This document shows positions 2,985 through 26,182 of a DNA stretch of 26,182 bases, in pieces. Where the stretch lies: positions 1 to 26,182 of the IMG/VR virus record IMGVR_UViG_3300025137_003545; one strand, 5' to 3'. The DNA is from a virus. How positions within the stretch are numbered: the first letter of the stretch is position 1; each line of letters starts with the position of its first letter. The notes under the pieces were generated by a model, which searched no databases, was not told where the DNA came from, and saw nothing but the letters and a program-made list of their open reading frames with translations. The translations under genes were made by a program, and so were the position numbers.

Positions 2985-4163
2985 TTAATACTTTGCCTCC
3001 GCAACATGATCTCTGTAGCGATTGCCACTTCTTAACCATTCTTCTTCACCGTCGCCTTGCATGATATCAATCATTCTGTCAATGGTTCCATTTGTCCAAT
3101 CACTAATGTTACCCATATTCTCACTTGGTGCTTCAAGTCCTTGCAGTATTTTAGTTACTGCATCTTCAAGGCTCCACGGAGTATATAAACGTGTGTAATC
3201 ATTTGCAAACGTTTCAGGAAAACTTCTGTAAGCAGGATATACTACGTTACAACCTAATGTATCTGCTTCACTTACTGTATTACTAACCCAATCTTGTAAA
3301 GCACAGTTAAACATTACTTTACTATCGTTTACAATATTATAGTAATCATTTTTCTGTAAGTCTTTTTCAATAGTTAGTAAACCAACCTTTTCTAAATGTA
3401 ATGCTCTGTCTAAATATTTTTGATTGTTACTTCTAAGTGGACCACCACTTAGTACTGCAAACTCCACATCAGGTCTAATATGTTTTACGTTTTCAATAAC
3501 GTCCATAAAGAAGTCCGGTTGCTTCTCTTGATCAAACCTTGCCGCAAATACAACTCTGTCTTTACGTTCTGTCCAAGGCTTAATGTTATTGTTAACACGA
3601 CTTAGTACTTCTTCTTTGCCAAAACTTAGTCCGCTAATATTATATATCGGTGCTGACCAGTTAGCAATTTTCATGTGTGCAACCATTTCTTCATTAGTTG
3701 CTAAAATATGTACATTAGGAATCTCATTACACATTTGTTCGTATAACGACATCCACTTGCTCATACCCCATACGTGAACAAAGTCATCAGGGTCAACTGC
3801 TTGTGCTAAACAACGTAAGTAAATTGTCGGACGTTGTTCTTCAGGTATTTGACACATGATGTAAGGAAGCGACTCAATACCAGGTTGAAACATATCTTCA
3901 AAGAAGACTGCATCATTGCCAGTACATTCGCCGTTCCTCATCATTTGTACTAGATTCATAAGTTGACTCATACCAAAGTATGATCTACCATGTGCATCTA
4001 ACACTTGTCCTACACTAATGGCCTTAGTATCATCTATAGTTGTTCCAGGAACTACTACATACTCAATACCACGTTTCTCAAATGCCGCAGTACTCCAATC
4101 TTGTAATTGTAAAGTATAACGACCTTCATAAGGCTCTAAGCCCATATAGAATAGTTTATTCAT
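2985..4163 (-). CDS. Glycosyltransferase, GT-B fold (GT4-like)
   Basis: 392 residues. The C-terminal half has the GT4-type pattern RVVFAARFDQEKQPDFFMDV, then EFAVLSGG, and an acceptor/donor region SNTVSEADTLGCNVVYPAYRSFPE, where the E of SEAD is likely the nucleotide-sugar-binding glutamate. The N-terminal half (FYMGLEPYEGRYTLQLQDW, AHGRSYFGMSQLMNLV, FFEDMFQPGIESLPYI) is a pattern I recall from marine T4-like phages. The start overlaps the stop codon of the preceding small gene by one base. Together with GalE it may glycosylate modified DNA bases, virion proteins or a host polysaccharide; the sequence does not decide which. Confidence 0.85.
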   Translation of the reverse strand: MNKLFYMGLEPYEGRYTLQLQDWSTAAFEKRGIEYVVVPGTTIDDTKAISVGQVLDAHGRSYFGMSQLMNLVQMMRNGECTGNDAVFFEDMFQPGIESLPYIMCQIPEEQRPTIYLRCLAQAVDPDDFVHVWGMSKWMSLYEQMCNEIPNVHILATNEEMVAHMKIANWSAPIYNISGLSFGKEEVLSRVNNNIKPWTERKDRVVFAARFDQEKQPDFFMDVIENVKHIRPDVEFAVLSGGPLRSNNQKYLDRALHLEKVGLLTIEKDLQKNDYYNIVNDSKVMFNCALQDWVSNTVSEADTLGCNVVYPAYRSFPETFANDYTRLYTPWSLEDAVTKILQGLEAPSENMGNISDWTNGTIDRMIDIMQGDGEEEWLRSGNRYRDHVAEAKY

Positions 4164-4405
4164 TAGTTACGTCTTTCCTTTCGGTTCTTTAAGTGGAACT
4201 GATCTCTTAATGCTTGACGCATTGCACGACCATCTCTGATCCACTGGTTGTAGGGTGTACGTCTATTGCGGTTACTGTTTTGCATGTGGCCCCAAGGGCT
4301 CTTAGATCGATATAAATCTTTCTCGTCAAATATGTATCCGTTGTTAACGCAGAATTGCCGGTAGCCATCCAAGTCTTCGAAAACTTGGCGTACTGCTGGT
4401 TCCAT
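4163..4405 (-). CDS. Unknown small basic protein (80 aa)
   Basis: Not recognised. It has an aromatic N-terminal half (FEDLDGYRQFCVNNGYIFDEKDLY) and a strongly basic, Asn/Arg-rich C-terminal half ending KNRKERRN, which suggests nucleic acid binding. Start ATG 4405 is preceded by an AAGGA-like site overlapping the end of the QueD-fold gene region. A longer open frame at 4207-4440 in another frame is less likely because this one fits the neighbouring start/stop overlap. Confidence 0.7.
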   Translation of the reverse strand: MEPAVRQVFEDLDGYRQFCVNNGYIFDEKDLYRSKSPWGHMQNSNRNRRTPYNQWIRDGRAMRQALRDQFHLKNRKERRN

Positions 4406-4429
4406 TTTGTTTTAATCCTTCTAATCATT

Positions 4430-4891
4430 TCAATAATCATATTTTATGAATGAACCATTTTCCCCGTCCTCACTTACCTCGATATGCACAGAACGTTCGG
4501 GGTACCGCTCTGCTATCGCCTCAAACAAATCATCTGACATCATCTCACATGACTTGTAGTCAAGTTGTAAAGTTTTTTCACTGTATAACTTTTCCAACCA
4601 ACGTTTGAACTGAATGAATTCAATATCCCTATCATCATGGAATACTTGAATCCAAACTTTAAATTTAAAGATGTGTCTATGAATGTAGCCTAGGAAACTA
4701 ACATCATATTCATCACCTGTTGCTAATTTTGGATCATCAAGAGCAGCAGGATATTTGTGCAATCCTTCCTTACTGAACGTAACCCATACCATAGCATTTT
4801 TACTATCTCTTTGTTTTGCACGTCTATCGTTAAGTGCTTCTTCTCTTAAACGTCTAGTCATATAATCCATGTGCCCCTCACGTTGTTCCAT
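4430..4891 (-). CDS. QueD/6-pyruvoyl-tetrahydropterin synthase-fold protein, catalytic Cys not conserved
   Basis: 153 residues. I align it by eye to the T-fold enzymes QueD/PTPS. GLHKYPAA (H45) matches the first zinc histidine. FLGYIHRHIFKFKV (H71, H73) matches the CxxxHGH strand with both zinc histidines kept. DIEFIQFKRWLEK matches the MVxDFxxLK segment, SCEMMSDDL matches the PTxExLA helix, and VSEDGENG (E141) matches the terminal VKET. The position of the catalytic cysteine, 4 before H71, is leucine. QueD makes 6-carboxytetrahydropterin from the FolE product. Here the zinc site persists but the chemistry may differ. I recall similar proteins in cyanomyoviruses. It follows the YdcH-like gene with a one-base overlap. 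Confidence 0.6.
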   Translation of the reverse strand: MEQREGHMDYMTRRLREEALNDRRAKQRDSKNAMVWVTFSKEGLHKYPAALDDPKLATGDEYDVSFLGYIHRHIFKFKVWIQVFHDDRDIEFIQFKRWLEKLYSEKTLQLDYKSCEMMSDDLFEAIAERYPERSVHIEVSEDGENGSFIKYDY

Positions 4892-6337: not shown

Positions 6338-6366
6338 ATTATACAACACAATTTGTATGTTGTCAA
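6338..6366 (-). promoter_or_regulatory. Consensus sigma70 promoter for the methyltransferase operon
   Basis: On the minus strand it reads TTGACA (6361-6366), 17 bases, TATAAT (6338-6343): both hexamers match consensus exactly. The -35 box contains the TGA stop codon of the DpdA-like gene (6363-6365), so the promoter costs almost no intergenic space. It should drive the operon 6314 to 1436. Confidence 0.8.
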
Positions 6367-7823
6367 TCAAATAATACATTAAATTGACTTTTACTGTTAA
6401 CAATCTTTTTACCTGTAGTACCTCTACTACCACCTTTAATGCTATCCCAAAACTTACTGTAGTGATTAATAACATCCATACTTTTATTAAAGTCTTTAGG
6501 TGCAAATACTTTGTCAACAACGTCACGAAACATTATTCTATTAAACGTTTCATCTACTAACATACCTGGAACTTGTCCTTCGTCGTATAGTCTGTTGGAG
6601 TCTTGTACTGCTCTAATATGTTGCCAAACATTATGACCCATAAGCAATGCATAACTAAAACTATCCCAACTTGTTTTACCTTCTTTACCAATTTTGTTTA
6701 GTTCTCCAGGTGCATAGTAACAAATGTCTCCAATGCTACATCTTGAACTAATTGGTGAGTCTTCAAACATATCATGTATACCATCACGTAATACTACGTC
6801 ACGGAAACTATCTGTGTTCTTAGAATACTTTTTGTTATCAGCAGTGGCTTCCATCATGTAACTCCACTTACCTCTATCATCAGTTCTTAACCTTGTGTAC
6901 ACTTGTCCGTTAGCAGTTGCTAAGAAAGGTGATGCACAATCAAAACTAATAGTAAAGTCTGGATTATGATGACGTCTAACTGCTCGTTGTATATCAGTTA
7001 GTAACAATGCCCATTCTAGTTTACTTGTACCTAAAAAGTGCATCCAGTCATGCTGTCCTTGCTCTAACAAGCCTTCATCTATAAGTGTAACCAAACGTTT
7101 TAATACCAAGTGTAAGTCACACATATTTTGTCCACCCATACCCCAACCATCAAATGGTCTGTCATATTTGTCTGAACAAAACTTCTTCATAGTGTTGTAC
7201 CAATCATCTGCTTCAGTATGATTACTACCTTGTAATACGTTAAGTATTTTTAAGTCTTTACCTCTGGCTTCCATAAAGAATTCATTGTTAAACAATGTTG
7301 CATCAACGGCATCCTTATAACTTTTAATTCCACAGGCTTCACTTGCTTTTGGATCCAAGTAAGTCCATGTTGGAATATCTAAAGTCATGCCATAGTTTGC
7401 AATACCCGATTGCCATTTAATAACGGCTTCACGTTTCTTTTGTGCCGCTTTATCTTTTGTGTCTGCCCATGCACCAGGCCATACACCTTTTGCAATTTGG
7501 AATCCACCAGAGTCAGCAACCATAAGTGTATCAGCACTTCTACTACGGACCATGTCTTCTCTTGGAACATGTTTAGTTAAATCCATATCGGCATGACCAG
7601 CACTATAAAGACTCCACTTGTATGGAAACAATGCTTCTTGTTTATTAAGCCAATTCATTGCTTCCATATTCGGAATGTTCTTAGGTAGTCTGTCACCTAC
7701 CACACTTTTTACTTTATCAGGAAAACGTTCGTTACCGATATAAGTTGCATAGAAGCCACTAAGGGCTGGCAAAAATATCGCATAGTCCTTTTGCTTCAGT
7801 GTTAGGTTGTCTTGCTCTATCAT
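6363..7823 (-). CDS. DpdA/TGT-family 7-deazaguanine transglycosylase (putative DNA-modifying)
   Basis: 486 residues with the whole tRNA-guanine transglycosylase framework: VADSGGFQIAKG (D104, substrate-binding Asp), LNVLQGSN (about 195-201), FDGWGMGG (224-231), HFLGTSKLEWALLL, and TISFDCASPF (D295, the expected nucleophile). A C-x5-C pair at 362-368 and GHN at 396-398 correspond to the C-terminal zinc-site region. The tRNA-recognising C-terminal features of bacterial Tgt are not evident. Phage members of this family (DpdA) put preQ0-type bases into DNA and so resist restriction. The gene follows the sliding clamp by 5 bases, placing it in the replication region. FolE and the QueD-fold gene could supply precursor; QueE and QueC are not in the window. 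A role on tRNA is the alternative. Confidence 0.85.
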   Translation of the reverse strand: MIEQDNLTLKQKDYAIFLPALSGFYATYIGNERFPDKVKSVVGDRLPKNIPNMEAMNWLNKQEALFPYKWSLYSAGHADMDLTKHVPREDMVRSRSADTLMVADSGGFQIAKGVWPGAWADTKDKAAQKKREAVIKWQSGIANYGMTLDIPTWTYLDPKASEACGIKSYKDAVDATLFNNEFFMEARGKDLKILNVLQGSNHTEADDWYNTMKKFCSDKYDRPFDGWGMGGQNMCDLHLVLKRLVTLIDEGLLEQGQHDWMHFLGTSKLEWALLLTDIQRAVRRHHNPDFTISFDCASPFLATANGQVYTRLRTDDRGKWSYMMEATADNKKYSKNTDSFRDVVLRDGIHDMFEDSPISSRCSIGDICYYAPGELNKIGKEGKTSWDSFSYALLMGHNVWQHIRAVQDSNRLYDEGQVPGMLVDETFNRIMFRDVVDKVFAPKDFNKSMDVINHYSKFWDSIKGGSRGTTGKKIVNSKSQFNVLFD

Positions 7824-12583: not shown

Positions 12584-13621
12584 CTAAACTTTTGCTTTTG
12601 TTAAACTTAATTGTGCAAATACTTCTGATGGTCTTGCACTACTTGGTACTAGACTTATACTAAAACCTGAAAAATGTCCTGCTTCTGCCATTTTAACAAA
12701 CTCGTCACCTGTGTTAACCATTACATATTTTAACATAGGAAAGTTAATACTAAGTAATCCATCCCATCCATAATTTGCTTTGTAACTGTCAAAGTTTGCT
12801 TTGCCATACATTCTTTCTGCTACAACAGGATCGTCTTGCATCATTGCTTGAACAAATGCAGCCGGGTCTTTGTGTACTTGACCAAACCATTTTGTAAGCA
12901 TGTCTTGTCTTTGCTTTTTCTTTTCTGGATCGTTTAATGGTAAATCTAGTGCAATGTATGCCACTGCTCTTTTTAATCCAAGACCTTTACTGCCTTGTTC
13001 AAAGTGTTGTGCTATACTTGGAAGAGCACTCCAGTATTCTTTTGCCACCATGTTAGTAGGACCACCTTCTCCAAGACGTCCACCACCTGATGTTGTTTCT
13101 GCTTTAACTTCAATACCTGTGCCGTTAACTTCAATATCACCACCATCGCTTTTTAATCTAATTTTATTAGATAGCATAGCAAGTGCATATTCGCCTGGGC
13201 CTTTTTGTTTCTTACCTGCTCCAAGCATTGCCATTGCTTGAAATATCTTTGAAGTTGTTTCGTCACCACCAAAGAAATCTCTAACACTTCCTACACCTGG
13301 TGTAGTTAACTTTGAAGTTTCAACTACGTTACCTTTAGATAACCTGTCTAAAAATCCATTTAAACTTTTGTAATCAACGCCTGCATGAAATATAATTTGT
13401 GTTAGTGTTTTTAATAACGGCTCAATACTAAAAGTATCGTCTTCTGTTGGAGGTCCAAATGCCTGTGCAACTTTACCTGATATGTCTTTATCATGTAATG
13501 TTCTATAGATTCTATCTAGTAATACTAGATCATCATCATTGTCTGCTTCAAGGCCACTAACCTTAGAAATGATGGCTTTTTTCATTCCATCATCTTCAAA
13601 TAAAAATTCTTTTGCTCTCAT
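12584..13621 (-). CDS. Putative PD-(D/E)xK nuclease with capsid-targeting-like N-terminus
   Basis: 345 residues. The middle holds GPGEYALAML (E144), then GDIEVNGTGIEVKAE with D162, E171 and K173. This spacing fits a restriction-endonuclease-type PD-(D/E)xK core. The rest is helical, with acidic segments and no other domain I recognise. The N-terminus MRAKEFLFE followed by D resembles the T4 capsid-targeting sequence (MKTYQEFIAE), with L-x-E as the cut site for a gp21-type protease. If so, the protein is packed in the head and injected. An AGGA ribosome site lies 7 bases before ATG 13621. A late-like element is at 13647-13655. The nuclease call rests on motif reading alone. Confidence 0.6.
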   Translation of the reverse strand: MRAKEFLFEDDGMKKAIISKVSGLEADNDDDLVLLDRIYRTLHDKDISGKVAQAFGPPTEDDTFSIEPLLKTLTQIIFHAGVDYKSLNGFLDRLSKGNVVETSKLTTPGVGSVRDFFGGDETTSKIFQAMAMLGAGKKQKGPGEYALAMLSNKIRLKSDGGDIEVNGTGIEVKAETTSGGGRLGEGGPTNMVAKEYWSALPSIAQHFEQGSKGLGLKRAVAYIALDLPLNDPEKKKQRQDMLTKWFGQVHKDPAAFVQAMMQDDPVVAERMYGKANFDSYKANYGWDGLLSINFPMLKYVMVNTGDEFVKMAEAGHFSGFSISLVPSSARPSEVFAQLSLTKAKV

Positions 13622-13646: not shown

Positions 13647-13655
13647 CTATTTATC
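13647..13655 (-). promoter_or_regulatory. T4-late-like promoter element before the nuclease gene
   Basis: On the minus strand it reads GATAAATAG, one base from the T4 late core TATAAATA, ending 26 bases before ATG 13621, a suitable distance for a short leader with the AGGA site. It overlaps the rpiB stop codon. Late expression would fit a protein packed into heads. Confidence 0.35.
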
Positions 13656-14087
13656 ACTAAACTTTGAGATCCTGTCTTGATGTCTACCGCCCTCAAAGTC
13701 TGTAATTAAAAACTTTTTAAATATTTCTACTGCAAGAGTGTGATCAGTAATACGCCCACCCATACATAGTACATTGCAGTTTCCGTGTGAACGTGCAAGT
13801 TCTCCCATGTTTATATCAGTACACAATGCCGCTCTTATGTTTCTATGTTTGTTGGCACACATTGCCATACCCTGCCCTGTACCACAAAGTAACACACCAA
13901 AATCATATCCGTTGTGTTGTAAATAATGTACAACTTTGTCTGCATAGTCAGGATAATCTACACTGTTTTCATCTGTGCATCCTAAGTCTACATAAGCATG
14001 TTCTGTAGTAACAAGATATTCTTTAATACGTTGTTTTAATTCGTAACCGCCATGGTCACTTGCTATTACTATTCTCAACTGAACCAT
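13647..14087 (-). CDS. rpiB: Ribose-5-phosphate isomerase B (RpiB/LacAB family)
   Basis: 146 residues, the family length. IASDHGGYELKQ is the N-terminal signature; VDYPDYADKV holds the active-site region; LLCGTGQGMAMCANK carries the active-site cysteine and the anion-binding loop. It interconverts ribulose-5-phosphate and ribose-5-phosphate, feeding PRPP and nucleotide synthesis. A TTG at 14078 is a credible alternative start: it has AGGA 8 bases upstream, overlaps the upstream TGA as TTGA, and gives the common N-terminus MRIVIASDHGG. ATG 14087 has no ribosome site. It ends just before the nuclease gene. Confidence 0.9.
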   Translation of the reverse strand: MVQLRIVIASDHGGYELKQRIKEYLVTTEHAYVDLGCTDENSVDYPDYADKVVHYLQHNGYDFGVLLCGTGQGMAMCANKHRNIRAALCTDINMGELARSHGNCNVLCMGGRITDHTLAVEIFKKFLITDFEGGRHQDRISKFSDK

Positions 14088-14954: not shown

Positions 14955-15241
14955 GGTTCAATTATCTCCACAACTAAATCGTTTACACCTTTAATAAGGC
15001 GGTGATATGTTTCTTTGGGTATAAAGTGCGTATCGCCCATTACTAAGTCTTTAGGTAGTTCGTTGTCCATTTGTAACTGCCAGCCGTCACTGCTCATAAT
15101 AATGATATGCCTATCGTTATGATCTCTATGCCATACTAAGTCATCTTCCCAAATTGTTTCTGGAAAGGTTCTAAGTCTTCTATTGTCTGAAAGTTTTTGT
15201 TCTACAAATGGATGTAGATTACCACCAAGTTCCGCCACCAC
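14951..15241 (-). CDS. Small cupin-domain protein
   Basis: 96 residues in the frame. The cupin core is visible: LVWHRDHNDRHIIIM with a possible metal-binding HxDH, then WQLQMDNELPKDLVMGDTHFIPKETYHRLI with the second cupin motif (G-D, P, H) and LVVEII as the closing strand. I recall similar single-cupin proteins from T4-like marine phages. The role is unknown. The start used is GTG 15241, which overlaps the upstream gene by 23 bases; GGGG lies a few bases upstream. A later start is possible because the first 28 residues lie outside the cupin core. Confidence 0.7.
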   Translation of the reverse strand: MVAELGGNLHPFVEQKLSDNRRLRTFPETIWEDDLVWHRDHNDRHIIIMSSDGWQLQMDNELPKDLVMGDTHFIPKETYHRLIKGVNDLVVEIIEP

Positions 15242-15794
15242 TTAACCCCAAGCTCTTTGCATAGCGAGGTAAACGGCAAGCCCAGTAACCGGCTTTTGTT
15301 TTATCTTTTTTATTTTCACAATCATGTCTAGCGGCAAAACTAGCTCTTGCTTTTGGATCTTTAAGTTTAACGGCAAGATTGCCTCCACCATCTTTAGCAC
15401 CAAAACTAACTTTAACTACGTTTCCTTTTTTGTTCTTTGTATAAACATAAAACTTTTTGGATCCGCCACGTTTTGGTTTGCTTAATTCTACTTTTTTACC
15501 TTGATACTCTGCTTCTGCAATGTTATGATTTTCTTCACTAATGATCATATCTAAAGGAACACTACCAACTCCTACAACCTTTACCCATTCGCCTAACTGG
15601 GTATCGCGAAGTATTTCTTCATCAAACCAATCAAGGTCAGTTAAACTACCTTCATTGTATTGTTCTCTTGCTTGTTTAAAAAGGTCAAAGTAAGCATCAC
15701 TACCAAAGCGATAAACACTTTCATGTAGAGGAATGCTATTTTTTGTGTGGTATTGAATACCTTCGTTTATAGATAATAGTTCATTGTATTTCAT
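15219..15794 (-). CDS. Probable head-packaged protein with conserved C-terminal phage module (191 aa)
   Basis: The N-terminus MKYNELLSINE followed by G fits the T4 capsid-targeting pattern with I-N-E as a protease site. The middle (LGEWVKVVGVGSVPLDM) is not recognised. The C-terminus KARASFAARHDCENKKDKTKAGYWACRL and a closing GLSGGGTWW form a module I recall at the ends of many marine phage proteins; its Cys/His residues suggest metal or DNA binding. No ribosome site is visible before ATG 15794, only the AT-rich gap after the oxygenase gene. Confidence 0.7.
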   Translation of the reverse strand: MKYNELLSINEGIQYHTKNSIPLHESVYRFGSDAYFDLFKQAREQYNEGSLTDLDWFDEEILRDTQLGEWVKVVGVGSVPLDMIISEENHNIAEAEYQGKKVELSKPKRGGSKKFYVYTKNKKGNVVKVSFGAKDGGGNLAVKLKDPKARASFAARHDCENKKDKTKAGYWACRLPRYAKSLGLSGGGTWW

Positions 15795-18075: not shown

Positions 18076-18405
18076 TTATTCTCCGTTTGTATTAGTGGTA
18101 GTAGTTTCTTCGACGTCAGCCTGTACTTCAACATCAGGCATTCCTGCTTGAGAGTTTGCGTCCAACATCTTGTATTCTAAATGATGTGCAACACTGGATA
18201 GGTAGTCACTTGCTTTAGTGATCTTGGCCTGTACCCAACCTTCAAGTCCTTGTTCTTCAGAGACACCAGCAAGTAGTTTATGCAACTCTATTGCATACTT
18301 TGCCGTTTTGTATAAGTCGGAACGTGCCATTTGCACTTCATGATCAACTTCCATATGTCTAGCATCCATGCTAATATCTTCTTTTATAATTTGTTTTGCT
18401 CTCAT
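18076..18405 (-). CDS. Conserved marine phage helical protein with capsid-targeting-like start (109 aa)
   Basis: The N-terminus MRAKQIIKE followed by D fits the capsid-targeting/protease pattern (I-K-E). The body HEVQMARSDLYKTAKYAIELHKLL, LEGWVQAKITKASDYLSSVAHHLEY is a helical module I recall from many marine T4-like phage proteins, of unknown function. GGAG lies 8 bases before ATG 18405, and a CTAAATA late-like element is 31 bases upstream. It is followed after 4 bases by the gene at 18071, so the pair is probably expressed late together. Confidence 0.75.
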   Translation of the reverse strand: MRAKQIIKEDISMDARHMEVDHEVQMARSDLYKTAKYAIELHKLLAGVSEEQGLEGWVQAKITKASDYLSSVAHHLEYKMLDANSQAGMPDVEVQADVEETTTTNTNGE

Positions 18406-18460: not shown

Positions 18461-19075
18461 TTATTTTAATATTTTATATAATTGCCTTGTAAATGCAAAG
18501 TGTGTTTTTTCTCCAGGATGCACGTTATCTAGTGCATAATCATTTAATTCTCTACATATATCTTCAATATACAAAGGTTCAATTACTGCTTTATTCCATT
18601 TAGGTGTGTCGGCATAGTACTTATTATTAGGTATTAAGTTAATATGTTTAATATCTATATTATTATAAAAGTCATTTAACTGATTTAATCTTAAATAAAA
18701 ATCATTAAGTGTATCAATGTTACTGTGAAATTGTGCATAATATGTTTTACTAGCATTACTATCATTCCATGGTGCTAGTTCTGTTTCTGTGCCATTATCA
18801 TTATAAACAATATGCCTATCTGGATAAGTCCATTGTATAATTACTATATCTTTAGGATTATAGTCAAAGTTAATTGCTTTAGTCCATATTTCTTTATTAC
18901 TAGCACCAGGTCTACTTGTGTTAATACAATCACGGTTAAGTTTACGAGCAACACCATTAGCAAATGATAATTCACTAGCCACAGGACCTGCTTCATTGTT
19001 TTCTTCTTTAAAACAATCTGCTAACCCGTGTCCGTATGCTAAACTGCAACCATGTGTTATTAATCTTGCCGACAT
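18461..19075 (-). CDS. SGNH-hydrolase-like protein, paralogue 3 of 3
   Basis: 204 residues. Block I is LITHGCSLAYGHG (Ser), block II is RPGASNKEIWTKAI, a core strand is DIVIIQWTYPDRHIV, and block V is ALDNVHPGEKTHFAF (D-x-x-H). It is the most diverged of the three tandem copies and the only one starting MSARLITHG rather than MRLVAFG. The family includes esterases and carbohydrate O-deacetylases, so removal of acyl groups from host surface sugar is possible. The start overlaps the middle copy by 16 bases. Confidence 0.7.
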   Translation of the reverse strand: MSARLITHGCSLAYGHGLADCFKEENNEAGPVASELSFANGVARKLNRDCINTSRPGASNKEIWTKAINFDYNPKDIVIIQWTYPDRHIVYNDNGTETELAPWNDSNASKTYYAQFHSNIDTLNDFYLRLNQLNDFYNNIDIKHINLIPNNKYYADTPKWNKAVIEPLYIEDICRELNDYALDNVHPGEKTHFAFTRQLYKILK

Positions 19076-19656
19076 ATATTTAGATACTCTTGTGCTAAAT
19101 CTTCATGAAACTGTGTATCGCCGTGTTCTCCGTCGATTGCTTTATTGCTATTTACATAAATTGAATTCATATCAAATAATATTTTAGTATTTTGCCAACT
19201 AGGAGTTGGACTTAGTGTTCTAATATCTGTACTAAAGTTGTACATGTTAGGTACTAGCATGTTAGCATGATGTATGTATGTGTTTGCTAATATTGCCTTA
19301 TCATATGTATCATGTGTTAATGCTAAAAACCTTTTAACATAGTCTTGGTCGTGCCAAGTTGCTAATTGCTCAACTACACCATCTTGTCTTATTATACAAT
19401 CTCTGTTAGGGTAAGTCCATTGTACTACTATTAAGTCGTCAGGTTCAAAATTAAAGTTAATAATACGATGCCATATTTCTCTATTACTGCTTCCCCATTT
19501 ACTTGCATTAATACATTTACGATTTAAGAAATTTGCCATTAGTTGTGGCCATGCTAATTTACTAGGAGGAAGATCTCCAGGGCCTCCTATGTCTAACCAA
19601 CAATCTTCTAAGCCTACTCCGTAAGTATGGCTACAACCAAACGCAACTAATCGCAT
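19060..19656 (-). CDS. SGNH-hydrolase-like protein, paralogue 2 of 3
   Basis: 198 residues. Block I is AFGCSHTYGVG, block II is SKWGSSNREIWHRIINF, a core strand is DDLIVVQWTYPNRDCII, and the C-terminal D-G-E-H in DGEHGDTQFH is the DxxH position, though the usual H-P-G is changed to H-G-D. The first 23 coding-strand bases nearly coincide with those of the first copy, so the duplication is fairly recent or under strong selection. The catalytic pair seems present but the altered block V makes activity less certain. It overlaps its neighbours by 10 and 16 bases. Confidence 0.7.
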   Translation of the reverse strand: MRLVAFGCSHTYGVGLEDCWLDIGGPGDLPPSKLAWPQLMANFLNRKCINASKWGSSNREIWHRIINFNFEPDDLIVVQWTYPNRDCIIRQDGVVEQLATWHDQDYVKRFLALTHDTYDKAILANTYIHHANMLVPNMYNFSTDIRTLSPTPSWQNTKILFDMNSIYVNSNKAIDGEHGDTQFHEDLAQEYLNICRQD

Positions 19657-20282
19657 GACTCAAATGCCTCTTGTATATAATGATTAACACTCAATCTATG
19701 TATTCCTTTAGGATAATAATTAGGAATAGTTTTATTTTTTACTTTTTGTATTTTATCTAACATATAATTAGCAAATTGTTTATGACACTTTGGACCTGGG
19801 TGTATATTATCTGTTCCTCTGTCACCGGTTTCATATATTGGTTGTAAGTTTCCTAATAACGGAATAGTTTGCCATCGAGGATAAGGTATAAGTGATACTT
19901 CGTCGCAGGCAAAATTATAAATGTTTTTTATCAATGTATTTGCATGTTGAATATAAGTATGACTTTCTATAATTCTATCAAAGTCATCATATGTTTCAAC
20001 CATATATCTTGCTACTGTTTTATTCTTGTGCCAGTCACCAAGTTGCTCTACGTTGTCATTAGTAATAATACAATCTCTATTTGGAAAAGTCCATAGTACA
20101 ACTACAACATCGTCCGGTTCATAGTTGTAGTTAATTATATTCCACCATAGTTCTCGGTTACTACTTCCACTTTTACCTAAGTTAATGCATTTAACATCTA
20201 ATAACTCAGATAGTTGTGTTGGCCAGTTCGTATCACATGCTTCGCCTACGGTATTGCTACAACCAAACGCAACTAATCTCAT
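19647..20282 (-). CDS. SGNH-hydrolase-like protein, paralogue 1 of 3
   Basis: 211 residues. Block I is AFGCSNTVGEA, block II is GKSGSSNRELWWNIINY, a core strand is DDVVVVLWTFPNRDCII, and block V is GTDNIHPGPKCHKQFANYM, the most canonical of the three. It also has a longer basic C-terminus after IQKVKNK. It begins with an ATGA overlap at the apt stop codon, so it is expressed with apt from the promoter at 20839-20867. Likely an esterase or deacetylase; the substrate is unknown. Confidence 0.72.
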   Translation of the reverse strand: MRLVAFGCSNTVGEACDTNWPTQLSELLDVKCINLGKSGSSNRELWWNIINYNYEPDDVVVVLWTFPNRDCIITNDNVEQLGDWHKNKTVARYMVETYDDFDRIIESHTYIQHANTLIKNIYNFACDEVSLIPYPRWQTIPLLGNLQPIYETGDRGTDNIHPGPKCHKQFANYMLDKIQKVKNKTIPNYYPKGIHRLSVNHYIQEAFESCD

Positions 20283-20867: not shown

Positions 20868-21269
20868 CTATTTTGTTGAATAAATGTTTTTAACTTTTTT
20901 AGGATAGCCGGGTTGCTTTGGCTTTTTCTTGCCTTTTAGATAACCCTTAGGATCTACTGCACGGCGTATTGCTTTTTCTTTTCCAAATAATGGAAAGGCA
21001 ACGTGTGCAATATCTGTACTTGCTGTTGCATCTGCACTAGCATCTTCTTTTTTAATTGGTAGTTCAGGGTCGTATGCTTTCCATTCATCATATGTCAAAT
21101 ACATATCTGTATCTGGATCATAATACTTGCCTTCGTTATTATCGTAATAAACAACTTTACCTGAACGTGTCATAATAGGACCTTCTAGTCCATCACGTGC
21201 TTGGTACTTGTCTCTGTCAATTGGCGGAAGGATTGCGTATCCTTCATGTATAATATCATTTATTTTCAT
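20868..21269 (-). CDS. Probable head-packaged protein (133 aa)
   Basis: The N-terminus MKINDIIHE followed by G is a very good match to the T4 capsid-targeting sequence with an I-H-E cut site. The middle has a Tyr/Asp-rich stretch (GKVVYYDNNEGKYYDPDTD, MYLTYDEWKAYDPE), and the tail is highly basic (GYLKGKKKPKQPGYPKKVKN), suggesting DNA contact inside the capsid. The function is unknown. Only a poor ribosome site is visible (AAGG, 13 bases before ATG). Confidence 0.72.
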   Translation of the reverse strand: MKINDIIHEGYAILPPIDRDKYQARDGLEGPIMTRSGKVVYYDNNEGKYYDPDTDMYLTYDEWKAYDPELPIKKEDASADATASTDIAHVAFPLFGKEKAIRRAVDPKGYLKGKKKPKQPGYPKKVKNIYSTK

Positions 21270-22830: not shown

Positions 22831-23645
22831 TTTTTTACTGTGTTGCTAACGTTCTTAGCCTTGCCTTTACGATTCTTACTTGGATCATCTCTACGTTTTT
22901 TGTTTACTGCGGCTGCTATTGCTTTTTTGCCACCTTTGGCTCTTAAACTTGCGGCTCTGCTTTTGCTCAAGCACTTGGGTTTACCTTCTCCAGGCTTACG
23001 ATCACCGCATTTACCTATGCGTTCACCTTTGGTGTTGTAACGATCCCAACCGCCGCCTCCGGCTCCGCCCTTCTTGCCTTTACCAAACCAGGCTTTAAGA
23101 TCTTCTTCAATACCTTCTGCATAGTAAGGATTTTCTGGATCTGCATCTCCAGACTCATCGGGCCACCAATCTAATTTATAGTGTTCACCATCTGCAAACA
23201 TACCCTTCATTCCGAGTATACGAGCTTCGTATTCTTCTTTAACTGGTTTTACTCTACCTGCTACTACATCCATTACAAAATTTAGTGTAGTTGCGTTTGC
23301 AGTTAAACTTCCACAACGTGCGCCTACTTCATTCTTTAAATGATCAATTAGTATACTACCACTACACTTTGCTAGTTCGTCACTTAGTTCTTCTGGTACT
23401 TCTAAGTCAACATAACAGTATACAAAGTCATAATGCGGTGCTGGTGATCCATGTAAGATATATTCATCTCTACATACCACACGTTTAAATCCATCGATGT
23501 AGTGCCAAACAGTTTGCTCGTTAGTTATTTCATCTGGAGCACCAAATGTTTTTTCCAACTGCTTACTATAATCTACAGGTTGTGGATGATCCCAATTATC
23601 ATAACCTATGTCTTGTTTTGCTTCCTTGAATTCAAAGAATCTCAT
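22827..23645 (-). CDS. Unknown multidomain virion-type protein (272 aa)
   Basis: The first 190 residues are an unrecognised alpha/beta domain (FGAPDEITNEQTVWHYIDGF, PHYDFVYCYVDLEVPEEL). A Gly-rich linker (KKGGAGGGGW) leads to a basic tail with RYNTKGERIGKCGDR, GKPKCLSKSRAASLRAK and AAAVNKKRRDDPSKNRKGK, a module I recall from many marine phage proteins. The N-terminus MRFFEFKE followed by A is a plausible but weaker capsid-targeting peptide (F-K-E). It overlaps its neighbours by 4 bases on each side. Confidence 0.7.
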   Translation of the reverse strand: MRFFEFKEAKQDIGYDNWDHPQPVDYSKQLEKTFGAPDEITNEQTVWHYIDGFKRVVCRDEYILHGSPAPHYDFVYCYVDLEVPEELSDELAKCSGSILIDHLKNEVGARCGSLTANATTLNFVMDVVAGRVKPVKEEYEARILGMKGMFADGEHYKLDWWPDESGDADPENPYYAEGIEEDLKAWFGKGKKGGAGGGGWDRYNTKGERIGKCGDRKPGEGKPKCLSKSRAASLRAKGGKKAIAAAVNKKRRDDPSKNRKGKAKNVSNTVKK

Positions 23646-23830
23646 TTGCTTTTACTTTTTCCCCAGTTGGCTGCACCAACTTTGCGACACTTAGTTAAGG
23701 CGCCACTTGCATATGCACTTGGCCATACTTTATAACGGCTTTTAACTTTATGATAACAAGCATCTTTTTCGCCTGCTTTTTCATCAAATTGCTCTTCTGT
23801 TATTTCTTGATGTACTTCGTTTATTTTCAT
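23642..23830 (-). CDS. Small phage module protein with CYHKVKSRYKVWPSAYAS motif (62 aa)
   Basis: The C-terminal half DACYHKVKSRYKVWPSAYAS, then GALTKCRKVGAANWG, is a motif I know as a recurring stand-alone or fused module in marine phage and giant-virus proteins, of unknown function. Two cysteines and many basic residues suggest nucleic acid or metal contact. The N-terminus MKINEVHQEITEE may be a capsid-targeting peptide. ATG overlaps the stop of the large upstream gene by 4 bases with GAAGG close by. Confidence 0.75.
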   Translation of the reverse strand: MKINEVHQEITEEQFDEKAGEKDACYHKVKSRYKVWPSAYASGALTKCRKVGAANWGKSKSK

Positions 23831-26182
23831 CCTTCAGATCCTTTACTTAAAGATGCCATTGCTAGTTTTTTATAACTATCATGATATTCAATACGTTGTT
23901 CTAAACCTCGCATGCCGGGATTAATTGGCTTTGTAACTTCTTTAGTATTAGTAAAATCGTTTACTTTAGGTGCAACTCTTTTACTCCAGTACCACAATGC
24001 AATTTTGGCTGCTATTAATGGTTCTGCTGCCTTCTCAGGACTGTTAACTAAGTCTATTCCAATGGCCTTTCCAGCAACTGTATAGTTGTACTTACCTGTT
24101 ATTTGAATGTACCCTCTGCCCTTATACTTTGCACCATCACCACGTTTAGTGTTGCCTAATGCTCGTGCTTTTTTTGGAGCATAACGAGGATCATACTTTC
24201 TAAAATCTAAACTACCACCGTACTCTGTAAGTGTTCTGAACTGATTACTTTCATGAGCACACTGAGCCATAAATGCCGCTAACTCATCTGACTCTAGTCC
24301 TGCCTTTTTAGCAACTACTAACAATACTCTCTCAAGTTTTTTATTTGTAATAGGTACAATTTCAGCCTTAGGCTTTGGAATTGGTGCTTTGTCTACAAAA
24401 TTAGTTGGTATCTTTTTAACTGTCTTTGGTTTTACAGTAAAGTCAGGAATTTTAATCTTCTCACCTACTTGTAATTCGGTAGTATGGTTGTATCCATTCA
24501 ACTTGTATAAAACTTTTGGATCAATTTTTAATTCTCTTGCAAGTGAGTATATAGTATCACCTGGTTGTACTTCTGTTTGTTGTACTACAACTATTTCTTT
24601 AGCAACTTCAGGCTTAGAAATATCTTTAGTAAAGAAAGAACCTGCGCCAAAGGCCGCAAGTGCTATTCCAGTACCAACAACAAGATTGCTGAAAAATCCT
24701 TCAGTCAATTCTTCGCTAATGCTTTCATCTAATTGTCCTTTCAACTTGATTCGAAGTTTCCTTACTGCAGGATCCTCCTCTTCGAGTGTATGGCCACCTT
24801 CCATGATTGCTAATTGAACTGGTGTGTACTTTGTGTATCCACTTAATTGAGGGATTGTTGGTTTAAGTATATCTTCGTGTACTCTTGCTTTTGCTTTTTC
24901 AAACATTTCTTCAAGTGTCTCTACTTGTGTTAAATGCTTTTGCTTGTGTTTACCTTTAAAAAACTTCTTAACGTTTGCATACTCGCTGCCAACAGGGCTA
25001 TCTTTTGTTGCATTTTGTTTTGTTACAATGCCAACACCTGCTGATTCAATTAATCTCGGCATAATTATTTCTGGCATTTTAATATGACTAGTGTCGCTGC
25101 CGTATGGAACGATACTGTCCCTGTATGCTTCTGCATGTGTTTGTTTTTCTTCGGCATCATTAGTTCTATAAAACTTATTTGCAATAGCCATATCACCTAC
25201 TATACTATTAGGTGGTATTTTTACTATTGCTGGTTTATAAAATGTAATTTTCTTAAAATCTTTATTTGTTAAACTGTAGAATGTGCTTTCCCAAGCATCA
25301 GGATGTAGTGCAAATACTCCAGCACGATCTGGAACCATATCTGCAAGTTCATCTGTACCGTCATGATATTTAGGTAACTTTCCTAAGTGTACTGCCATAC
25401 CTTTTTTAATTTGAGGTTGCTTTAGATAATATGATAGTCTACCACGTTGTGTGTTTACGTCAATATCTTCGTATACACTTTCTGATAACTCACTAGCATC
25501 TACTAACCAAACTTTCGCTATACCTTGTGTGCTAATAAGTCCTATTAGTCTAGTGTTACCTGCTACTAAGTCTAAACTTCCATCTGGTTGTTTTACTACT
25601 ATTGGCATTTCGACTGTGCCACTATCCATTGCTTTTTGTAGTCTTGCAACTTTGTCTGGCTCTAAGTCATCTAAACTTTCGCTTCCGTCAGCACCAGTAT
25701 TACCTATTTTCTTTACAGCATTTTTATCAACTGTAATAACTTTACCTTTACTTGCAAGTTGTTCCCAACCTGCTTGTCCTAGTTTATCAAAGTATGAGTA
25801 ACGATTTGCTTCTTCCCATTCTACATCAAATTGTGGCTTGACATAGTTTACATTGACATCTTCCATTACTTCTAAGTCTTGATCTTTTGCAAACTTAGCC
25901 GCGGCTGGTCGCATAAGAACGAAACTTATACCTCCATCTTCTTCACGTGATGTTGCAACCCAACCAATTTTACTTGCCCATTGTTTAGCAAACCTGGCAT
26001 ATAACTTATGTCTATTCTTACTATCATCTGCTTGTTTAGATGCATTGAATGTTATCTTTTGTACATCATCTTCATCTACTGATTTCCACCATTCAAGTAT
26101 ACCTGCTTGTACTGTAGCAAATATTCTAAATTCATCACCAGTACCGGTTGCTTTCATTGTAGCACCCATACCTTTTGTGTCT
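23827..26182 (-). CDS. Large multidomain LysM-GH19 lysozyme-type protein, 5' end outside window
   Basis: The frame runs past the window edge with no stop, so residues are numbered from the first ATG (26169), which is probably internal. Order: TGDEFRIFATVQ, a domain I recall from marine phages (about 1-95); a ParB-like domain with LVAGNTRLIG at 201-210; an unknown domain (about 235-345); a hydrophobic segment at 491-513; a LysM domain at 534-577 (VQPGDTIYSLARELKIDP); and a GH19 domain from about 600 with Glu 640 (AHES) and Glu 649 (LTEYGG), plus GRGYIQITGKYNY. The last two bind and cut peptidoglycan. Between domains are T4-gp21-like sites: LIE-S at 376, and LDE-S, ISE-E and LTE-G at 480-491, so it may be a processed head-packaged polyprotein. 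Confidence 0.85.
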   Translation of the reverse strand, partial: DTKGMGATMKATGTGDEFRIFATVQAGILEWWKSVDEDDVQKITFNASKQADDSKNRHKLYARFAKQWASKIGWVATSREEDGGISFVLMRPAAAKFAKDQDLEVMEDVNVNYVKPQFDVEWEEANRYSYFDKLGQAGWEQLASKGKVITVDKNAVKKIGNTGADGSESLDDLEPDKVARLQKAMDSGTVEMPIVVKQPDGSLDLVAGNTRLIGLISTQGIAKVWLVDASELSESVYEDIDVNTQRGRLSYYLKQPQIKKGMAVHLGKLPKYHDGTDELADMVPDRAGVFALHPDAWESTFYSLTNKDFKKITFYKPAIVKIPPNSIVGDMAIANKFYRTNDAEEKQTHAEAYRDSIVPYGSDTSHIKMPEIIMPRLIESAGVGIVTKQNATKDSPVGSEYANVKKFFKGKHKQKHLTQVETLEEMFEKAKARVHEDILKPTIPQLSGYTKYTPVQLAIMEGGHTLEEEDPAVRKLRIKLKGQLDESISEELTEGFFSNLVVGTGIALAAFGAGSFFTKDISKPEVAKEIVVVQQTEVQPGDTIYSLARELKIDPKVLYKLNGYNHTTELQVGEKIKIPDFTVKPKTVKKIPTNFVDKAPIPKPKAEIVPITNKKLERVLLVVAKKAGLESDELAAFMAQCAHESNQFRTLTEYGGSLDFRKYDPRYAPKKARALGNTKRGDGAKYKGRGYIQITGKYNYTVAGKAIGIDLVNSPEKAAEPLIAAKIALWYWSKRVAPKVNDFTNTKEVTKPINPGMRGLEQRIEYHDSYKKLAMASLSKGSEG

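Follow-up and report, generated by a model that had tools for sequence, protein, structure and literature searches.

A predicted head-packaged PD-(D/E)xK nuclease in an uncultured virus and its relatives

Does a single gene of an uncultured marine T4-like phage encode a nuclease that travels in the phage head and enters the next cell together with the genome? The question is raised by an intact open reading frame (ORF) of 345 amino acids (aa), starting with ATG, at 12584-13621 on the minus strand of IMG/VR record IMGVR_UViG_3300025137_003545. The whole 26,182-nt stretch (~26 kb) that was analyzed is called the window here; its family-B DNA polymerase is closest to those of jumbo T4-like phages (Sinorhizobium phage Phosso, 50%; Agrobacterium phage Atu_ph07, 46%). 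The original prediction, made from the letters of the window, proposed a PD-(D/E)xK-like core combined with a capsid-targeting-like N-terminus and a late-like promoter, and suggested that the packaged enzyme could attack host DNA or rival phages on entry and that a DpdA base modification might protect the phage's own DNA.

A nuclease fold, head packaging, and late expression of the product are supported by inference, and a late, tail-packaged, protease-trimmed, and ejected PD-(D/E)xK DNA nuclease is the best explanation of the locus, one that we favor with some reserve. We infer packaging, cleavage, ejection, and catalysis as follows. The nuclease would be synthesized late, and a short capsid-targeting tail of the T4 style (residues 1-9) would bring it into the prohead, where a gp21-type prohead protease would trim it after LFE. 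The trimmed nuclease would be stored in the head beside the DNA, and at the next infection it would be ejected into the cell with the genome and would cut DNA there. The features concerned are listed below, with their basis in brackets.

12584..13621, minus strand: gene for the predicted head-packaged PD-(D/E)xK nuclease, 345 aa (ORF, alignment, model)
13595..13621, minus strand: capsid-targeting-like N-terminus MRAKEFLFE, residues 1-9, cut predicted after E9 (T4-derived pattern, boundary motif, low model confidence)
13595..13603, minus strand: prohead-protease-like site L7-F8-E9 ([LIV]xE before the domain in 40/42 relatives; gp21 motif L/I-X-E)
13220..13591, minus strand: predicted helical N-terminal domain, residues ~11-134 (AlphaFold2 model)
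13061..13201, minus strand: predicted catalytic core, residues 141-187, with GPGEYALAML (E144), GD162, E171-V-K173, and GGGRLGEGG (alignment, model, motif)
13648..13655, minus strand: late-promoter-like box GATAAATA, ending 26 nt upstream of the start codon (box scan, comparison across relatives)

The nuclease core and its viral family

Judging by its sequence, the 345-aa ORF is a member of an undescribed viral family. Peptide scans of IMG/VR returned 10 loci at 77-99% identity and 15 loci reaching down to 62%; further scans gave 18 loci including distant ones (47-53% over the core) and 59 loci with a wider core alignment, and a DNA pattern for the nuclease core returned 111 stretches, some of them not relatives. 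The sole match of an earlier DNA pattern (L037) was judged to be due to chance. An iterated profile run over all ORFs of 202 loci matched 187 ORFs, many of which represent one contig fetched repeatedly; one match of <150 residues (L010) was dropped. There were 62 representatives at <92% identity, falling into 10 groups at 40%. The alignment used below (A6) holds 42 of these 62, with 20 left out (L106 and 19 divergent or short ones).

The residues E144, D162, E171, and K173 lie, with their numbers confirmed, within GPGEYALAML, GGDIEV, and GIEVKAE. All four are invariant in the 42 full-length relatives of the alignment, among 19 invariant columns at identities down to 21%, which bears out the proposed core. 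The motif GxGE..GD..E[VIL]K is present in 63/63 representatives, part of the divergent ones having been fetched by a DNA pattern that encodes it, so that there the motif is present by construction.

AlphaFold2 run on the 42-sequence alignment gave a model with a mean predicted local distance difference test score (pLDDT) of 83.4 and a predicted template modeling score (pTM) of 0.79, with the blocks 141-180 at 84-90; an earlier model, for which the alignment comprised 10 close relatives, was of low quality (pLDDT 42.6) and was not used. In the model E144 opens a helix (144-150), which is followed by strand 154-156; D162 lies just before strand 163-165, E171 and K173 are in strand 168-175, and helix 190-199 and a later strand (288-293) come after. 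This order of helices and strands is the order of PD-(D/E)xK enzymes. The predicted secondary structure contains an alpha-beta-beta-beta-alpha-beta core with the residues in the expected elements; structure prediction thus returned the nuclease core in its order rather than a fold lacking it.

Structural alignment with VIA-align placed MspI (Z 5.2 over 143 residues, 4.5 A) and HinP1I (Z 5.0 over 158 residues, 4.9 A) in the top rows with PvuII just below (Z 4.1-4.2), and restriction enzymes took six of the first seven rows, a Z near 5 being in the range that the tool itself calls common. These three enzymes, the best alignments among solved structures, have a D..ExK type core in common with the window protein, with Z only 4-5 and ~10% identity. 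The window protein differs from them by ~130 additional helical residues at its front and by a long helical insertion ahead of the final strand. Sigma-factor-like structural matches of residues 12-99 were taken as common helix packing. Overall, we consider a PD-(D/E)xK fold of the 345-aa protein very probable.

Relatives outside uncultured viruses were scarce. The window protein found nothing in single-sequence or family-library searches, PADLOC gave weak scattered matches only, queries from the window or the main family found no relative in isolate phages, and tblastn of a 77%-identical relative against isolate phages produced chance matches only. Two scans, which depend on short conserved peptides, found no cellular relative among 84,980 prokaryote species, each represented by one genome. 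One isolate, the cultured Flavobacterium phage immuto, encodes a distant relative, gp078, which carries GKGE..GD..EIK and lies upstream of the terminase, portal, protease, and capsid genes; it was reached via a divergent relative at 23% identity and 66% coverage, and the main profile scores it weakly. The same nuclease superfamily has further divergent branches, one of ~310 aa (L148, L149, L123, and L114) and one of ~400 aa (L107, L150, and L175). L148 adjoins a tail-protein match, L107 is near an amidase-bearing protein, and L107-type proteins begin with MVNIDALLSEWAYRC.

A tail and a protease-type site before the domain

In T4, as described in passages of PMC9026906, gp21 cleaves head proteins C-terminal to L/I-X-E, and the ten N-terminal residues of IPIII are enough for packaging. 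We found [LIV]xE directly before the folded domain in 40/42 relatives, giant fusion proteins included (short ORFs 32/33 and fused 5/5 by script; rows without an anchor 3/4 by eye), with LFE in the window protein; within domains, the motif occurs in 9.8% of 17-residue windows. The stretch before [LIV]xE differs in length, and in the fused proteins [LIV]xE follows unrelated sequence. We therefore read [LIV]xE as a cleavage site more than as a structural residue, and its glutamate may also have a structural role. Residues 1-10 are the sole segment of the model with a pLDDT <50.

A pattern derived from T4 tails matched 3/247 genes in T4, namely ipII, ipIII, and gene 22, all of which encode head-core proteins. 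The same pattern matched 4/39 called genes in the window (shuffle mean 0.026; 0/1000 shuffles reached 4) and 15/1347 genes in six related records compared with ~0.7 by shuffling, numbers that flatter the effect size because the pattern had been loosened with these sequences in view. Eight of the 15 genes are within 15 kb of the nuclease gene, a zone that holds 230 of the 1347 genes. The scans with this pattern and with the two further patterns described below lost genes crossing the borders of 20-kb stretches and ended short of the terminal bases of some records (1643 in G004, 11614 in G002, 2913 in G003, 4772 in G005, and 410 in immuto). Enrichment of the pattern and the boundary motif both speak for the capsid-targeting-like N-terminus first proposed. 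A broad tail pattern was not significant (15 versus 10.4 expected in G001; 18 versus 14.0 in G004) and was rejected. We also set aside a second, post hoc pattern: it showed enrichment in the window, G001, and G004, but did not pick up the T4 internal proteins and lacked significance in both T4 and G002. Four neighbors of the nuclease gene have similar N-termini:

18076..18405, minus strand: MRAKQIIKE (T4-derived pattern; domain common to cyanophages and immuto gp079)
20868..21269, minus strand: MKINDIIHE (T4-derived pattern)
15219..15794, minus strand: MKYNELLSINE (post hoc pattern only)
23642..23830, minus strand: MKINEVHQE (post hoc pattern only)

The first of these shares a domain, DLYKTAKYAIELHKLL..LEGWVQAKITKASDYL, with L008 1524-2690, immuto gp079 (L203 12476-15001), and several cyanophages. 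All carriers are annotated as hypothetical, the immuto copy adjoins the nuclease relative, and this is possibly another head-internal domain. Tail-like starts, MKINQIINE and MLINEVIILQEE, were also seen at G004 196645-197526 and G001 3311-4858 (L240 and L224), whose proteins match 5'-3' deoxyribonucleotidase and tRNA nucleotidyltransferase families and are candidates for further head-packaged enzymes.

In other relatives the nuclease domain forms the C-terminal ~355 residues of ORFs of 1341-2235 aa (L142, L143, L066, L070, L091, L087, L097, L088, L090, L073, and others). Read by eye, L142, L066, and L088 carry a tail-like MKF...[IL][LI].EYG near the N-terminus and, further along, amidoligase-like and KGFSQKAHCAGKKK stretches; PHROGs and Pfam named nothing useful in the fused giants. 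Their last junction carries [LIV]xE, and the giant would most naturally be read as a precursor that the prohead protease cleaves. We tentatively suggest that T4-like giant phages possess a whole module of head-tagged enzymes, comprising the nuclease, its deoxyribonucleotidase-like and tRNA nucleotidyltransferase-like neighbors, and others, and that in some phages the cargo is made as one giant precursor, which the prohead protease cuts at [LIV]xE into separate injected effectors, with the nuclease last. If so, the nuclease would begin the breakdown of the host genome or clear rival DNA before phage gene expression.

Promoter, genome setting, and self-protection

The late-like box GATAAATA ends 26 nt before the nuclease ATG. 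In the window alone such boxes are at chance level, TATAAATA with <=1 mismatch occurring 34 times on the minus and 31 times on the plus strand, yet the box NATAAATA is upstream of the nuclease gene in 22/34 relatives, as against 283/18869 random 60-nt windows (1.5%) and 55/486 other genes in the same loci (11.3%). The late-like promoter of the original prediction thus gains its support from comparison. A perfect sigma-70 promoter (12/12; TTGACA, 17 nt, TATAAT) is located at 12582-12554 on the minus strand, right behind the nuclease stop codon. It is followed by a gene for a small protein that weakly matches T4 DsbA (E 0.097) and then by the DNA polymerase block. Because this site is just downstream of the nuclease gene and ahead of the polymerase block, the nuclease gene appears to lie where late and early genes meet.

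A tail-and-trim route calls for a prohead protease, and a protease of this type (PF03420) was present in 6/6 records with an identified capsid protein (PF07068). The protease of record G004 had no match in the window, which is a fragment. A protein search for it in nine records was also empty and tells little, since eight of them, also searched for the capsid gene, were without one.

The window has a DpdA-like gene (6363-7823), so labeled from a Pfam TGT match below the cutoff (E 0.25), from relatives in other records, and from a DSGGFQ stretch read by eye; its protein had no match in PHROGs, NCBIfam, or PDB sequences. Relatives at 45-58% identity occur in just 3/14 other family-carrying records, and none was found in the 221-kb record G004, which weakens the idea of self-protection by DpdA. 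N6/N4 methyltransferases exceeded the cut-off in 2/11 records and D12 methyltransferases in 0/11. As most records may be fragments, these absences, including those of DpdA, are weak evidence. No self-protection common to the family records was found. In T4 with packaged staphylococcal nuclease, the phage DNA was digested once calcium was added (PMC9026906, in part). Our guess is that the phage's own DNA is spared by sequence specificity, by base modification, or by lack of metal or space in the head.

Other genes of the window are noted here for completeness. A LacAB/RpiB sugar isomerase gene, an unusual phage cargo, is immediately upstream of the nuclease gene (13647-14087; Pfam E 1.7e-52). 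The 780-aa protein encoded at 23827-26169 has C-terminal LysM and GH19 chitinase-type endolysin domains (Pfam) and, by eye, a ParB-like stretch in its N-terminal half, as in polyvalent proteins. Three tandem paralogues at 18461-20282 start with MRLVAFGCS or MSARLITHGCS and look SGNH-hydrolase-like by eye.

Weighing the explanations against known systems

Several observations weigh against a packaged and ejected nuclease. Besides the common range of the Z scores given above, Foldseek against PDB gave no match at E <0.001, and the window protein matched no family in Pfam, PHROGs, NCBIfam, or PDB sequences. No head genes were identified in the 26-kb window. Two of the 42 relatives are without [LIV]xE (L182 has FFE, L137 none), and the T4-derived tail pattern misses ipI and alt of T4 and has 0 matches in record G002. 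The divergent L148-type relatives begin with MAEI.. and have no visible tail, so that packaging may be confined to a part of the superfamily. A literature search for virion proteomics of a family relative found none.

Virion nucleases with a restriction endonuclease (REase) fold are known in T4-like jumbo phages in the form of gp4 (passages of PMC7824862), and the immuto relative is near the terminase gene. Both points would suit a nuclease of head assembly or DNA packaging comparable to T4 gp4, which would work in the prohead or at the packaged ends instead of being injected as an effector. We regard this as unlikely, because the family is not gp4 (hhalign probability 0.2%), gp4 relatives coexist with it in 6/14 records, and the position of the gene is untied to the head module in G004, with the nuclease near 205 kb and the capsid protein near 55 kb. 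REase-fold, resolvase-like proteins are also described in jumbo phages (PMC7824862, in part), and a late intracellular nuclease of DNA repair or recombination might have a matching N-terminus by coincidence or as a membrane- or core-binding helix. Such an enzyme leaves the [LIV]xE boundary in free and fused proteins, the clustering of tail-pattern genes, and the late box jointly unexplained, and we think it quite improbable.

A further alternative keeps packaging and injection and changes the task: the protein would be an anti-defense factor that removes plasmid or defense-island DNA, or binds without cutting, and not a general nuclease for host DNA. In T4, the internal protein IPI acts as an inhibitor of a type IV restriction enzyme (PMC9026906, in part), and injected DNases have been proposed to degrade host or rival DNA (passages of PMC5512222). 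The invariant catalytic residues favor real cutting over binding, and we give this alternative very little credence, although an anti-defense role and an attack on host DNA are not distinguishable from these data. For the ejected nuclease that we prefer, we guess at the host chromosome or the DNA of a resident rival as the target.

If this explanation is true, the family shows that the T4 tag-and-trim packaging route also carries a nuclease in nature, raises the question of how an active DNA cutter is stored beside the phage's own genome, and allows injected effectors of uncultured jumbo phages to be predicted from a combination of sequence features (tail, [LIV]xE, late box). As predicted for the window nuclease, T4 IPII, IPIII, and Alt have a short N-terminal capsid-targeting tail and a gp21-type protease site and are small cargo beside the DNA; their cargo has no sequence relation to the window nuclease. 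To our knowledge, no T4 internal protein is a nuclease, and neither is Alt. T4 gp4 is a virion-associated nuclease with the REase fold predicted here (PMC7824862, in part); no homology between the two proteins was detected, and both occur in the same records.

Tag-and-trim nuclease cargo is on record in T4 as an engineered fusion of IPIII with staphylococcal nuclease, and such a tail fusion packaged <=200 copies of active nuclease per head (passages of PMC9026906). In open-access full text on packaged, injected, or virion phage nucleases (subscription papers were outside the scope), we found no natural nuclease with such a tail and no description of this combination. Polyvalent proteins combine several domains in one large chain and are believed to enter the cell with the DNA (Iyer et al., 2017, PMC5512222, in part). 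In relatives such as L142, L143, and L066, giant proteins end in the nuclease domain, and several domains share one polypeptide in L142, L143, L066, L097, and L088, whereas the window protein is a single 345-aa unit. Unlike the polyvalent proteins, the family uses an REase-fold domain, and its fused members have [LIV]xE at the junctions as against the metallopeptidase route described for polyvalent proteins (passages of PMC5512222). A naturally tag-packaged nuclease would be a variant of the theme of T4 internal proteins and polyvalent proteins.
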